Positions 8,599 to 14,643 of a DNA stretch of 32,589 nt are shown piece by piece (position 1 is the stretch's first letter; every line of letters begins with the position of its first letter). Under the pieces are notes generated by a model. That model was not told the origin of the DNA and did no database searches. It saw only the letters and a list, made by a program, of their open reading frames with translations. The position numbers and the translations under genes are program-made. This DNA is from Acidobacteriota bacterium (GTDB lineage: Bacteria; Acidobacteriota; Terriglobia; Acidiferrales; UBA7541). The stretch lies in assembly GCA_003223325.1 (NCBI GenBank), contig QHYS01000147.1, positions 1-32,589 of the forward strand, written 5' to 3'.

Positions 8599-8897
8599 AG
8601 CGACACCGCCAAGTAGACGATTGGATGCAGGTTGTGGAAATTCTCCGAAGAAGGATCATAAGACAAAGCGCTGGCCTGGACCGGCATATATACATCTGCT
8701 TTTTTGCAAATCGATCTATCGCTGCGTGAGCTGTTGATACGCATTTCCATTCCCTTAGAGCTGCGTCGGCCTGCGGAGCGTATCACTTCACAAGGATAGC
8801 GGGTACGAACAGCAGTTTGCGAAGGTTTGGGATCTACCTCAAAGGCTTGTTCCGAAACGATGCTCTCACATTAACAAGGATTTGGATAGCGGCGTTT
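8599..8897. other. Intergenic DNA upstream of the DUF3179 gene
   Basis: About 300 bases between the small membrane protein gene (-) and the recognisable part of the DUF3179 gene (+). In the DUF3179 frame it is open from 8730 up to the UGA at 8898, but it lacks an ATG or GTG with a ribosome site. Its translation does not contain the region I expect before the CxxC site in full-length DUF3179 proteins. It could be a diverged N-terminus or unrelated sequence joined by a deletion. Confidence 0.4.
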
Positions 8898-9647
8898 TGA
8901 CCGGCGTGCAACACAGGGACCAGTTTGGTCCCCAACATCGATGGCAAGTTGCACCACTTCAGTAACGCGGGCCTCTACGATGGGCTCTTCGTGACGCAGG
9001 ACGCGGAAACGAAGACGCTGTGGAACCACATTACTGGCGGGGCGTTGTACGGCCCTTTGGTGGGTCGTAATCTCGGCCCAGTGGGAAATCTGCTGCAGAT
9101 GAATGTCAAGGAAGCCTTGGCGATGGATCCCAAGATGCAAGTCGCCATCTCCGACCGGATCTACTTCGCCGGCGGCCGGCAGTTTGGGTCAGCCGGATCG
9201 GTTGTAGCTGGCCTTGCAAACTGTCGCGGCAATGAACCTGATCCAAACACCCAGATGAGTGCTCTCTTCGTACGGACGCTTGGCAAAGAAGACGAGCGGC
9301 GTCCCCGAATGGAGCTTGGGCTTGGCATGTGGGCAAGCGCCACTCGCAGATACCATCCCATGACGCGGATTCGGGAACGTGGTCGAGCATTTATCGATCA
9401 ACTCGACGGACGGAGAATCCTCATCTACATTGATCCCGAGACCCATACTCCTGCTACGCTCTTCGGCGGCGCGTCGTCGGCCAAGATGAAGGATAACGAG
9501 GTCCATCTCGATAATGGAGTTGTCTTGCGCGATAGGTACTTTTCGACCGCGGAGGTAAGTGCGACAGATGAGCATCCGCAGCAGGTTTTCACGCGCTGGT
9601 ATGTTTTTGCGTTGACCTTTCCCGGATGCGAGATTTTCGGCGAGTAA
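8898..9647 (+). CDS. DUF3179 family protein, candidate UGA-encoded selenoprotein, 5' end unresolved
   Basis: From the codon after the UGA at 8898 the frame reads PACNTG, then VPNIDGKLHHF, GLYDGLFV, WNHITGGAL, NLLQMNVKEAL and GGRQFGS, and ends with FALTFPGCEIF. This is the core of a DUF3179 protein. Family members normally have Cys-x-x-Cys (as in CPLCNTG) where this gene has UGA-Pro-Ala-Cys, so the UGA stands at the first Cys. A perfect hairpin follows at SECIS distance. The alternative is translation from the TTG at 8925, but that would omit the hallmark CNTG and has no ribosome site. The family N-terminal portion is not recognisable upstream, so the gene may be truncated. The porin gene starts 40 bp downstream. 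Family call firm; Sec reading is inference. Confidence 0.7.
8916..8932 (+). promoter_or_regulatory. Candidate bacterial SECIS hairpin in the DUF3179 gene
   Basis: GGGACC (8916-8921) pairs perfectly with GGTCCC (8927-8932) around the loop AGTTT. The stem starts 15 nt after the UGA codon ending at 8900. Bacterial SECIS elements are short hairpins just downstream of the UGA inside the coding region. The loop closely resembles AAGTTT in the formate dehydrogenase hairpin of this window. SelB recognition cannot be shown by reading. Confidence 0.45.
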
Positions 9648-9687: not shown

Positions 9688-11250
9688 ATGAATCTTAGAG
9701 CTGTGCTCTTGTCGATCATCTGCGCTCTGTCGATCGGAAGTATTCTGTTCGGACAGCAACGATCCAGCGAAGCCGGCCCTCCCTCTCTTGATGACTCGCA
9801 AAAGCACGACGACTCGCAACCGGGTGAACCTTCATTGGGGAATGCTCAAAAAGCTGACACGAGCTCATCCAACCTCAAAGCACCCTCTATCAAACTGTTT
9901 GGTAGTTGGCGGTTCCGAGCCGAGGCCTGGGACTGGTTCCAGCCCACCGTAGGAGAGAACGCATATGCCTTTGCGCATTCTCTTCTGCGAGCAGGCTTGA
10001 GCCAAACGAGAGAGCGATTCGAATGGCTGGTGGAGGGGGCCCAGGACGCCATTCTAGGACTTCCCGCCAACTCCATCGCGCCGGGTAATCAAGGCCAGCT
10101 TGGGCTTGGTGGGGCCTATTTTATGGCAAACCAGGACCGGCGAAACATTGCGAGCGGTTTCCTGAAGCAAGGCTATCTGGCCATTGGTCTTCCCCTGAAC
10201 GGAAGGTTCACCGTGGGGCGATTTGGTTTTTCTGACGGTACAGAGTTCAAGCCGACAGACGCGACACTCACAGAACTGGTCAACACGCGAGTCGCTCAAC
10301 GGCTGATCGGTGAGTTTAATTTCTCGGCCGTCTTGCGCAGCTTCGATGGCATCAGGCTGCGATTCGATGAGGGAAGGAACAACTTCACATTCGTGGCCGT
10401 TAGGCCTACTGAGGGTGCGTTCCAGGTGGACGCCATGGGAGAACTCAACGTTGACCTCGTTTATGGGGCATACACATTACCGACGGCGTATCGCAGCGGA
10501 GCGGGAGAATTGCGAGTTTTTGCGGCGGGTTACGTCGACCAAAGGCGAGGTGTACATAAAACGGATAATCGGCCGCTGGCGATTAGGGCATCCGATACGA
10601 AGCAGGTTCGTATTGGGACCTACGGCGGCGATTACGTGCAGGTCTTCCACACGTCTGAACACGGGCAGTTCGATTTCCTTGTATGGGGAGCGTGGCAGAA
10701 CGGCAGTTGGGGATCACTGAGCCAGCGCGCCGGAGCTTTTGCAGGCGAAATCGGCTGGCAGCCTCCCATCAAAATCGCGAATCCGTGGTTTAGCCTTGGC
10801 TACTCCTTCGGCAGCGGTGATTCCAACCCAGCGGACAACATTCACGGCACCTTTTTCCAACTCCTGCCGACGCCCCGGCTCTATGCGCGATTTCCATTCT
10901 ATAACATGGAGAACAATGAGGATTTCTATGCTACGGCCGAGTTTCATTTGCCACGATCCGTTCTTTTGCGCACCGAAGGGCACGCACTGCGCCTAACCAA
11001 TGCGCAGGACTTCTGGTATTCAGGTGGCGGCGCCTTTCAGCCTGCGACCTTTGGCTATACGGGGCGGACCAGCGTCGTCGGCCGCAGTTTGGCGAATGTC
11101 TGGGACGCGAGCTTAGATTTTCCGCTGCGCTACGGCTTCAGCGTCACGCTTTACTATGGCTATGCGTGGGGCAAGGGAGTGATCGCCAATGTCTATCCTG
11201 CGGGTACGAGTGCCCAGTTTGGTTATCTTGAGACCAACTTTCGTTTTTAA
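9688..11250 (+). CDS. Outer-membrane beta-barrel protein of the alginate-export type
   Basis: The 520-residue product has a signal peptide (about residues 1-22, ending LFGQQ) and a polar Ser/Asp/Pro-rich linker (25-65). A long run of alternating amphipathic strands follows, typical of an AlgE-like alginate-export barrel. Landmarks are GSWRFRAEAWDWF, FAHSLLRAGL, QGYLAIGLP, TVGRFGFSDG, TPRLYARFPFYNMEN and a final aromatic NFRF, the signature for outer-membrane insertion. Such barrels pass anionic solutes or polymers; the substrate is unknown, and no alginate genes are present. The start has GGAAGAG 6-10 nt upstream. It may be co-transcribed with the DUF3179 gene and converges closely (13 bp) on the YeeE genes. 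Confidence 0.82.
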   Translation: MNLRAVLLSIICALSIGSILFGQQRSSEAGPPSLDDSQKHDDSQPGEPSLGNAQKADTSSSNLKAPSIKLFGSWRFRAEAWDWFQPTVGENAYAFAHSLLRAGLSQTRERFEWLVEGAQDAILGLPANSIAPGNQGQLGLGGAYFMANQDRRNIASGFLKQGYLAIGLPLNGRFTVGRFGFSDGTEFKPTDATLTELVNTRVAQRLIGEFNFSAVLRSFDGIRLRFDEGRNNFTFVAVRPTEGAFQVDAMGELNVDLVYGAYTLPTAYRSGAGELRVFAAGYVDQRRGVHKTDNRPLAIRASDTKQVRIGTYGGDYVQVFHTSEHGQFDFLVWGAWQNGSWGSLSQRAGAFAGEIGWQPPIKIANPWFSLGYSFGSGDSNPADNIHGTFFQLLPTPRLYARFPFYNMENNEDFYATAEFHLPRSVLLRTEGHALRLTNAQDFWYSGGGAFQPATFGYTGRTSVVGRSLANVWDASLDFPLRYGFSVTLYYGYAWGKGVIANVYPAGTSAQFGYLETNFRF

Positions 11251-11263
11251 GTCGGTCACGTAC

Positions 11264-11683
11264 TTAGGGTAAAAATCGGAGCACCAGTCGCTCAATCACA
11301 CCGTGGAAGAGTACCGCGCCGGCGAGAAACCCAACCAGGTAAGCCATCGAGCTTTTGACGCCCTGGGAAGCGAGGACGTGCTGGCGGAACGGGCAGCCGT
11401 TAGCGAGCGTGGAGAAATAACCGACGCCAAAACCGCCGGCGACGGTGAGCAGTATGGTGATCACATCCGAGGAAGCAAACGGACCGGGACGAGAGCCAGT
11501 AAAGAGCCCAAGTATGGGGAACGCCAGCCAAGCCGTCAGGCCAAAAGCGATCAGTCCTCTAAGTAAATAGGTATCTCGTACAAGGATGAAGTCTCGAATG
11601 CCCCCAACGAAGCACATGCGTGATCGCTGGCCTAGATAGCCGAGGATGACCCCAATGACAAGAGTAGCAATTGCCGCTGTCAT
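11264..11683 (-). CDS. YeeE/YedE-family transporter half-protein B
   Basis: The 139-residue membrane protein carries the second-half signatures of YeeE/YedE sulfur-compound permeases: SRMCFVGGIRDF with C24 and NGCPFRQHV with C97, between four hydrophobic helices. In the full-length family these conserved Cys residues line the pathway for thiosulfate or a selenium species. The ATG overlaps the stop of the upstream half (ATGA at 11683-11680), so the two halves are translationally coupled and probably form one heterodimeric transporter. The family is clear. Whether the cargo is thiosulfate or selenium is inferred from the operon. Confidence 0.85.
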   Translation of the reverse strand: MTAAIATLVIGVILGYLGQRSRMCFVGGIRDFILVRDTYLLRGLIAFGLTAWLAFPILGLFTGSRPGPFASSDVITILLTVAGGFGVGYFSTLANGCPFRQHVLASQGVKSSMAYLVGFLAGAVLFHGVIERLVLRFLP

Positions 11684-12195
11684 CTCGTGGCCCTCCAGCG
11701 TAGCCAGAAAGTGCCCAGGATCACTCCCGCAGCCATCCCGGCGAAGCCCATCAGCCCGAGCACTTCACCCGCCGCGGAGCGCAGCAGCAGCCGGATCGAA
11801 CACCCGCCGGCGAGCAGCGCGGAATTCATCACCAGTGCCCCATAAAAGAACGTCTTCAATGAATTATCCGGGCTGCTCCAACGGAATTCTTTGCTGGAGG
11901 TTGATCCAAGCAGCGCGCCCAACAGCACTCCGATGGTGGTGAGCACAGGAAAAACCAAAGAGACCGGTGCAACCGTCAGGTGTGTACCAGCAGTTCGGTT
12001 GACGGTCCAGTTCAACAGATCGCGGGCGTGACATGCCATGCAAATTCCATATGCTTCGGGCGGCCGAACGTCGAAGAACGTGCCCGCTAAAACCGCCAAA
12101 ACGCCTGAGACAATACCGAGTTGCAGGGCCGTCACACGGATAGGGCCTGCTCGCTTCCAGGAACTCCTTGTCGCCGGCGCGGCGGTTATTGCCAT
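11680..12195 (-). CDS. YeeE/YedE-family transporter half-protein A
   Basis: The 171-residue membrane protein has four or five hydrophobic helices. Its conserved thiol sites are GICMACHARD (C52, C55) and AGGCSIRLLL (C132), matching the first half of YedE/FdhT-type permeases. Its C-terminal codon overlaps half B. The CxxCH string here is part of the CMAC-x-RD transporter motif, not a haem site. The upstream DUF3343 gene ends 24 bp before, and the ribosome site is weak, consistent with operon read-through. Selenium-utilising bacteria often carry a YedE permease near DUF3343 and cysteine-desulfurase genes (established association). Its use for selenium here is inference. Confidence 0.83.
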   Translation of the reverse strand: MAITAAPATRSSWKRAGPIRVTALQLGIVSGVLAVLAGTFFDVRPPEAYGICMACHARDLLNWTVNRTAGTHLTVAPVSLVFPVLTTIGVLLGALLGSTSSKEFRWSSPDNSLKTFFYGALVMNSALLAGGCSIRLLLRSAAGEVLGLMGFAGMAAGVILGTFWLRWRATR

Positions 12196-12219
12196 TTCAA
12201 GTGCTCTGCTTAATCGGTC

Positions 12220-12480
12220 TCATCGGCACTCCGCCTGAAAACGATTCCAATCGTCGGTGCGGGGCCGATAGAAATGAACTCCTTCAAACCTCACATTTTT
12301 CGCCGCTAAAAGTGGGAGAACGTTCTCACGCATCGCATAGTCAAATCGAAGCGCGACTCCGCAATTCGGACTTAGATCCTTGGGGCCGGGAATAAGCTGC
12401 GCGGCCAATCCATTGCGTTTCAGGACTGCTTCAGCCCGAATCGCGTGATGCGAGGCAAAAAAACTGATCAGGCCGTCCAT
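12220..12480 (-). CDS. DUF3343 putative Se/S carrier protein
   Basis: The 86-residue protein starts MDGLISFFASHHAIRAEAVLK and has the conserved PGPKDLSPNCG with C40, matching the DUF3343 family, named as a putative Se/S carrier-like protein. I chose the ATG at 12480. The open frame begins 16 codons earlier, but those residues are a Ser/Gly-rich shadow of the preceding gene. The start overlaps the cysteine desulfurase stop by 13 bp, so the two are tightly coupled. It probably accepts or passes a persulfide or selenopersulfide on C40 (inference). Confidence 0.85.
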   Translation of the reverse strand: MDGLISFFASHHAIRAEAVLKRNGLAAQLIPGPKDLSPNCGVALRFDYAMRENVLPLLAAKNVRFEGVHFYRPRTDDWNRFQAECR

Positions 12481-13661
12481 GTTTCCACTGCTTCCTGACG
12501 AGGAACTGTGGCTTCTGTTGCCGCCCATGCCGCGATCTGGCGCAGCGCTTCGAGCCCTTTCTCAACCTCCGCAGGTGTGTTGAACCAGCCAAAGCTGAAG
12601 CGCACCGTTCCTGTGGGAAATGTTCCCAAAGTGCGATGCGCCGAGGGCGCGCAGTGCAGGCCGGTGCGCGCCATAATCCCGAACGACTGATCGAGAATTA
12701 GGCCCACTTCAGAGGGCACCGCACCATCGATAGTGAATGACGCGAGATCACATTGAAGCGCCGCATTCCTCGGTCCGTATAACGTAAGCCCTGAAATCCC
12801 AAAGGCTCCCGCCAGAAACTGTGCAATTAGCTTTTGCTTGTGCGCCCTCACGGCTTCGATGCCGACTTCCAAAACAAAGCGCACCGCAGCACCTAATCCA
12901 GCTATTCCGGCCAGGTTCAGCGTTCCGCTTTCGTGGGCGTCCGGGAGGAATTCGGGTTGTATCTCATGCGCTGAGTCGCTGCCGGTGCCGCCCCGCATAA
13001 GCGGAGCGAGTGCCAAGCCTTCTCGGATGTAAAGACCACCCGTACCAGTGGGCCCGAGCAAACCTTTGTGACCTGTGAAGGCCACGAGATCCACGCCCAG
13101 TGCCTGAACATCGATGGGTATCGAGCCGGCTGTCTGAGAAGCGTCCAGCAAATAAGGTATTTTCGCCTCCCGCGCGAGTGCGGCCAGGTCGGCCACGGGA
13201 TTCAGCGTGCCAGCCACATTCGAAGCATGTGTGGTAACGAGAAGGCTCGTGTCGTGCCGAACGGCGCGCCGCACAGCTTCAGGATCAACCCTGCCGTCCG
13301 GGGTACAGGCCACTACCGTGACCTCGACACCTAGTCCTTCGAAATGCCGCAGAGGACGCATAACCGAGTTGTGCTCCATGCTGGTTGTCAGAACGTGATC
13401 GCCGGGCCGTAGGAGCCCTTGAAGCGCAAGATTTAGCGCATGCGTACCATTGTGAGTGAAAACTATGCGGCTCGGATCGTTGGCACTAAACAAATCAGCC
13501 AGGGCCTCGCGCGCTCTCTCGACAATACGAGCTGCGGCCACGGACATGCGGTGACCAGATCGGCCGGGATTGCCGCCCGCCTCGCCAAAATACTCGTCCA
13601 TGGCGGCGCGGACAGCCGGAGGTTTGGGCCAGGATGTCGCGGCGTTGTCAAAATAGATCAT
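12468..13661 (-). CDS. Cysteine desulfurase family protein (class V aminotransferase)
   Basis: The 397-residue PLP enzyme opens with MIYFDNAATSWPKP. It has the cofactor pocket SMEHNSV, the Asp in LLDASQTAG, the Schiff-base Lys in FTGHKG (about K199 from this start), and a persulfide Cys in ARTGLHCAP (about C337). This matches the stand-alone cysteine desulfurase subgroup that mobilises sulfur from cysteine, or selenium from selenocysteine as in CsdB-like lyases. The frame is open 14 codons further upstream, but those codons overlap the GerMN gene. The ATG at 13661 follows an AGGAG, though 13 nt away. It is coupled to DUF3343 and a split YedE permease. Confidence 0.9.
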   Translation of the reverse strand: MIYFDNAATSWPKPPAVRAAMDEYFGEAGGNPGRSGHRMSVAAARIVERAREALADLFSANDPSRIVFTHNGTHALNLALQGLLRPGDHVLTTSMEHNSVMRPLRHFEGLGVEVTVVACTPDGRVDPEAVRRAVRHDTSLLVTTHASNVAGTLNPVADLAALAREAKIPYLLDASQTAGSIPIDVQALGVDLVAFTGHKGLLGPTGTGGLYIREGLALAPLMRGGTGSDSAHEIQPEFLPDAHESGTLNLAGIAGLGAAVRFVLEVGIEAVRAHKQKLIAQFLAGAFGISGLTLYGPRNAALQCDLASFTIDGAVPSEVGLILDQSFGIMARTGLHCAPSAHRTLGTFPTGTVRFSFGWFNTPAEVEKGLEALRQIAAWAATEATVPRQEAVETWTA

Positions 13662-13677
13662 CGAGCTAGCACTGCTC

Positions 13678-14643
13678 CTACCGTTCGAGCAATCGTTCGT
13701 CATTCAAGAGTTGTGGCCGCGATTGCGGCGTTCGCAATAAATCGCTGCATTGCCCCAAGCCGAGCCGGGTCTGACCCTGAAAGTCGAGTTGCACAGTCCG
13801 TACCCCGGGGAATTCAGTAAGGCTAGCAATCAGTCCTAAGAGCACAAGTCGCATACGTTCGGGCTTATCGAGCGCCAAGGTACGGATGGACGGCGTATAC
13901 GTGAAGTTCAGAGACAGGAAGAGTTTCGATCGATCATAGTTGTAGTTCACGAGCCGAACATCCGTCGGGAAGCCTGTCAATTCCGAATCACCCGGCCCTG
14001 AAAGATAGGCACTGAGCACTGCGCGAGGGTCTGAAGCTGAAACAGGGAGCGCGACCAACCCGTTCGCCGAACCAAAATACAGCAGCGGCATACGAGTTGC
14101 AGGCGTTGCTACTGGTTTCCCTTCAACGCTCAATGCGACCGAACTCACACCCGGCAGTGCGGTCATTGTCTCGATTATCGCCGCTTTCGCTAGATCCGGT
14201 CGGCTGCTCCTATGGAGGAATGCGCCCGAGAGATCGATGCGCGCCACCTCGCCCGCAAGATCGAAGGACCGAATCTCAGTGCCGTATGGAATCCAGCTTT
14301 TCAACGAACTCCTCGCGTCAGGTCCCGCAAGCAAGGCGCGCAACACCGCACTCGGCAACTCGGTATTGACAGGCACACGCCGTGATACTGGGAAAAGTGA
14401 TTGACCGTCAGAAAAATACAACGTAACCGTCGCCGTTCTGGCCCACGGCCACTCAGCGAATGAAAAAGGTGTTTTCCCGGGCGATAGACTCCTTAGCCAA
14501 AATCCTGCTGCGAGCACGGCGAGGAGACCAAAAATCTGAGGAAGGCGCGCCAGTCGATCATTGGCTGTTCCGGAATTTGACGTGGTTCCACGCAGCTGAA
14601 GCGGCCGATCCAAAGTGTCTCCCGGACATGACCGAGTGGCCAT
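13678..14643 (-). CDS. Membrane-anchored protein with two GerMN domains
   Basis: The 321-residue product has a cytoplasmic N-terminus of about 35 residues, one transmembrane segment (IFGLLAVLAAGFWL), and two GerMN-like repeats. The first repeat runs TVTLYFSDGQSLFPVSRRV to LPGVSSVALSVEG. The second runs from LLYFGSANGLVALPV to EFPGVRTVQLDFQG. GerMN modules are known from the GerM spore lipoprotein and from many non-sporulating bacteria, where the role is unclear. The ATG at 14643 has a CCGGAG site; the longer open frame lacks one. Its stop lies 16 bp before the desulfurase start, making it the first gene of the sulfur/selenium operon, although a functional link is only positional. Confidence 0.75.
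   Translation of the reverse strand: MATRSCPGDTLDRPLQLRGTTSNSGTANDRLARLPQIFGLLAVLAAGFWLRSLSPGKTPFSFAEWPWARTATVTLYFSDGQSLFPVSRRVPVNTELPSAVLRALLAGPDARSSLKSWIPYGTEIRSFDLAGEVARIDLSGAFLHRSSRPDLAKAAIIETMTALPGVSSVALSVEGKPVATPATRMPLLYFGSANGLVALPVSASDPRAVLSAYLSGPGDSELTGFPTDVRLVNYNYDRSKLFLSLNFTYTPSIRTLALDKPERMRLVLLGLIASLTEFPGVRTVQLDFQGQTRLGLGQCSDLLRTPQSRPQLLNDERLLER

Follow-up and report, generated by a model that had tools for sequence, protein, structure and literature searches.

The window analysed here, a 32,589-nt stretch corresponding to one whole contig of a soil Acidobacteriota (gp2) genome assembly (377 contigs, 98.38% complete), contains an in-frame TGA codon at positions 8898-8900 of the + strand. 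The codon is followed by CCG GCG TGC AAC ACA GGG, encoding PACNTG in the frame of the open reading frame (ORF) 8925-9647, as had been claimed in the original prediction of a UGA at the CxxC position of DUF3179. The segment 8898-9647 (+), composed of the UGA, 248 sense codons and a TAA stop, corresponds to the C-terminal two thirds of DUF3179 proteins. Reading through the TGA raised its score against the Pfam profile PF11376 from 18.7 to 27.0 bits, which is exactly the curated cut-off of 27. The match spans profile positions 65-233 only and does not amount to a full-length domain, the N-terminal part present in relatives of the same genus (congeners) being absent, and an NCBIfam search with the window copy gave no match. 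By its alignment to the profile, the window copy is therefore best classed as a truncated relative of DUF3179 and not as an intact member. A gene for an alginate-export-like outer membrane protein (9688-11250) begins 40 nt past the DUF3179 stop codon and was not seen beside the copies of the congeners.

A perfect 6-bp stem, formed by GGGACC (8916-8921) and GGTCCC (8927-8932) around the loop AGTTT (8922-8926), starts 15 nt after the TGA, just as originally described. The published criteria for a bacterial SECIS (bSECIS) comprise a loop of 3-9 nt, a stem of 4-16 bp, a G within the first two nucleotides of the loop, a loop located 16-37 nt after the UGA and a minimum free energy of at most -7.5 kcal/mol (PMC13188914). 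The hairpin at 8916-8932 (+) satisfies these constraints, with its apical loop beginning 21 nt past the UGA and a fold energy of -13.4 kcal/mol for a 45-nt fold.

The same window encodes, on the minus strand, the alpha subunit of formate dehydrogenase-N (TIGR01553, 1352.7 bits over 1048 residues when read through), with a single selenocysteine (Sec) codon at 29964-29962. The AAGTTT-loop hairpin that had been attributed to this gene is real: it lies after the TGA at 29950-29933 (-), with the stem GGTCTC/GGGACC and one G-U pair. The two genes thus have in common a Sec-UGA followed by a short hairpin with a very similar loop, although the proteins are unrelated, the formate dehydrogenase hairpin is nearer to its UGA and the formate dehydrogenase gene is intact.

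The organism had been presumed to insert Sec, and its own genome encodes SelA (544.9 bits), SelB (348.5 bits, joined) and SelD (367.9 bits). An Rfam search of this genome for tRNA-Sec returned only Leu/Ser and other tRNAs, and none was found by a pattern search or around selA and selB. By using the tRNA-Sec gene of a congener for comparison, we could show that the gene is cut at a contig edge: its first 30 nt lie at the end of contig C156, with 100% identity to the congener's tRNA-Sec. The gene is intact in three congeners. The genome also carries a second DUF3179 gene (G000:C358:2882-3769; L001, L003), which is full length and contains an in-frame TGA at the corresponding UxxC site, in the motif USYCNTA. 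It scored 205 bits when read through, and its hairpin differs in sequence from that of the window. A selenium-metabolism neighbourhood was observed at 11264-13703 (-) of the window, with two ORFs jointly matching the putative selenium transporter YedE, a PF11823 protein of the Se/S carrier-like type and a cysteine desulfurase (TIGR01977) related to the Sec lyase SclA.

Homologues of the DUF3179 gene were then sought in related genomes. A first scan of genome contigs with the window protein alone gave no match. A search with the post-UGA protein retrieved orthologues in two genomes of the same genus (G297 and G299, 74% identity) and in one from another family of the class (G398, 51%). A profile scan of named genomes returned the same two congener contigs, which belong to isolates AA83 and AA84 of Acidobacteria gp2, together with members at a greater distance, of which one carries the label Gemmatimonadetes. 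The upstream homology that had been proposed as a check does exist in these relatives: the G297 and G299 genes are full length, with an intact N-terminus and a signal-peptide-like start, and carry TGA at the same codon. Over the whole segment that comprises the TGA and the hairpin, the DNA of the window, G297 and G299 is identical except for one synonymous T/C difference in G299. TGA was likewise found at this position in five further relatives, which are 49-64% identical to a congener; it is hence present in 8/8 members of the subfamily, the window copy included; no Cys member was found among the eight. The intact subfamily members scored 57-59 bits against PF11376 (57.1 bits for the orthologue L044).

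These data bear directly on whether the UGA could have arisen from a Cys codon by nonsense mutation, or by chance where a deletion joined two sequences. TGC or TGT is one step away from TGA, and Cys occupies this position in many DUF3179 proteins. Close homologues with TGC and no hairpin would have spoken for such an origin; the orthologues with intact N-termini were found to have TGA and the same hairpin, which rules this explanation out and leaves it with virtually no probability. The original proposal of a genuine Sec codon in a Sec-x-x-Cys pair was in this way supported by descent, and we regard the TGA at 8898-8900, the first position of U-P-A-C, as an inherited Sec codon on the strength of these alignments and of its presence in many other DUF3179 genes. 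Sec would accordingly be expected to be inserted at the UGA of genes of this type.

The hairpin is conserved along with the codon. Its sequence is identical in the two congeners and changes in a compensatory manner in more distant members, so that the stem is kept in 8/8 subfamily members, with pairing in 48/48 cells (100%), in line with the expectation of conserved downstream hairpins in homologues. Two pairs have changed on both sides: AU replaces GC in three sequences, and UA replaces CG in one. When the partner strand was slid by 1-3 columns as a control, stem pairing dropped to 21-67%. As to synonymous constraint, in three congener comparisons 0-1 codons differed among the 11 following the UGA versus 36-44 among the next 85 (Fisher p = 0.002-0.03, to be taken as indicative only since the compared congener pairs share ancestry). 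Because the post-UGA codons are nearly unchanged across congeners and the stem is kept throughout the subfamily, the association of UGA and hairpin is more than chance.

We have also investigated the region upstream of the UGA, where the earlier caution about an absent N-terminal portion proved justified: close relatives have this portion and the window copy is without it. The missing part amounts to about 115-120 N-terminal residues of the congener proteins, signal peptide included, or the front third of the gene. Searching for the congener N-terminus by tblastn gave no convincing match in the vicinity of the gene and no noteworthy one anywhere in the own genome, which ruled out an N-terminus that is present upstream in another frame. 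The blastn matches to the congeners begin at window positions 8875 and 8883, and homology stops about 20 nt 5' of the UGA. Upstream, homology to the congeners ends with the stretch 8875-8897 (+), in which the alignments show one extra base some 12-15 nt ahead of the UGA. This stretch is preceded by a junction stretch (8651-8874, +) in place of the roughly 115-120 missing codons. The flank at 8248-8649 matches, at 85%, another G297 contig, where it lies beside unrelated genes and no DUF3179 gene adjoins. Because this flank matches a different G297 locus, the window copy would sit at a lineage-specific junction.

A junction of this kind could also be an assembly artefact, in which a misjoin somewhere between about 8650 and 8877 conceals a gene that is really full length. 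The assembly is indeed fragmented into 377 contigs, and the left flank and the gene match different G297 loci. Against this, the missing N-terminus was found nowhere else in a genome that is 98% complete, and a misjoin would not account for the small indels within the conserved part and immediately ahead of it. We thus consider a misassembly unlikely.

The window copy shows signs of both decay and retained constraint. Relative to the congeners, nucleotide and protein alignments revealed small deletions at 9533-9590 (+) with a net length that is a multiple of three, corresponding to a compensated frameshift. Of 79 columns without variation among the seven other subfamily members, 9 are changed in the window copy, compared with 2/72 otherwise invariant columns in each congener (p = 0.011). 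The nonsynonymous count per lineage was, by itself, not significant (21:23 vs 22:45, p = 0.16). Over its 248 codons the C-terminal frame has remained open, and the pairwise omega between the window copy and the congeners is about 0.19-0.20, close to the 0.17 obtained between congeners. The open frame and this omega indicate that the decay is recent or that the rest of the gene is still selected.

Alternatively, the truncated gene could still be expressed as a shorter Sec protein without signal peptide, from an alternative start such as the TTG at 8850. Apart from the UGA, no stop interrupts the frame from 8850 until it ends at 9647; both the UGA and its SECIS have been preserved, with omega at about 0.2. 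However, no promoter-like site was found for the window copy, the signal peptide and the N-terminal domain are absent, the changed columns suggest relaxed constraint, and most codons 5' of the UGA in such a protein would be non-homologous to the congeners. Continued expression in this form therefore seems improbable. The window copy is most likely a 5'-truncated remnant of a gene for a secreted seleno-oxidoreductase, and the loss of the N-terminus, the changed invariant columns and the compensated frameshift suggest that it is probably at an early stage of decay, as the original prediction had allowed.

Taken as a whole, we put at about 0.8 the probability that an inherited DUF3179 Sec gene has lost its N-terminus by an upstream rearrangement and that the remaining copy is decaying. 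The intact form, represented by the two congeners, would be a secreted or periplasmic protein made with an N-terminal signal peptide. Insertion of Sec at its UGA would presumably depend on SelB and tRNA-Sec, bound to the hairpin that lies a short way downstream. Sec typically sits in redox sites, and the resulting Sec-x-x-Cys pair most likely constitutes a redox centre. In the own genome, the rearrangement upstream of the site would have removed the signal peptide and the N-terminal domain, leaving the UGA, the SECIS and the C-terminal part, and a working protein is most likely no longer produced from the window copy. This copy would exemplify the early decay of a selenoprotein gene, in which the recoding signals are still intact after the signal peptide has been lost.

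A literature search on DUF3179 found no tested function, and we have examined the predicted fold of an intact orthologue (pLDDT 85.6, pTM 0.81). The model matched mostly Rieske domains, with Z up to 7.0 and an rmsd of 2.5-2.9 over 91-95 residues; this Z is below the level the tool considers reliable, and Rieske-type matches at such values may mean only a common arrangement. Foldseek with the same model gave no match at E <= 0.001, and a sequence search against solved structures gave none either. That intact DUF3179 proteins consist of tandem Rieske-like domains, with the Sec-x-x-Cys loop at or near the former cluster site, is a very doubtful possibility. If true, Sec would belong to a secreted metal or redox centre of an undescribed kind, of which the all-Sec subfamily would be the specialised form.

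The occurrence of Sec in DUF3179 had been implied to be new. The family, with the motif UxxC/T, is already listed among selenoproteins in two reviews (PMC9312934 and PMC13188914), and both credit it to the 2007 study of an Olavius algarvensis symbiont by Zhang and Gladyshev. The window gene shares with these selenoproteins the Pfam family, the UxxC site and the downstream bacterial SECIS; it differs in belonging to a divergent subfamily from Acidobacteriota gp2 and in lacking the N-terminus. It is thus a new, truncated member of a selenoprotein family known since 2007. Cys-form DUF3179 proteins (CPLC, CTLC) belong to the same family and have Cys for Sec at the same column, mostly without a strong hairpin after the codon.

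In 297 genomes of the phylum Acidobacteriota, DUF3179 gave about 140 matches. As counted from the table of matches, about 61 of these contain exactly one TGA; TAA or TAG occurs in none of the matches. Annotation pipelines that treat UGA as a stop would consequently split or lose many Acidobacteriota DUF3179 genes. The alternation of Sec and Cys codons proposed as a check was observed at the UGA column in the wider family, where many members have Cys, whereas Cys replacement of Sec was not seen in the subfamily of the window gene, with its clear SECIS covariation. In a simple scan of the wider family, a stem of 7-9 pairs was present in 27/28 UGA genes vs 3/30 Cys genes, with mean simple stem scores of 18.5 and 10.0, respectively (p = 9e-10). 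Most of the UGA genes have UxxC; two have UxxT (L019, L069) and six have UxxA. The latter are UPLA genes (L025, L026, L028, L056, L060, L063), in which a UGA and a SECIS-like hairpin occur with Ala replacing the second Cys, a motif beyond the UxxC/T of the reviews.
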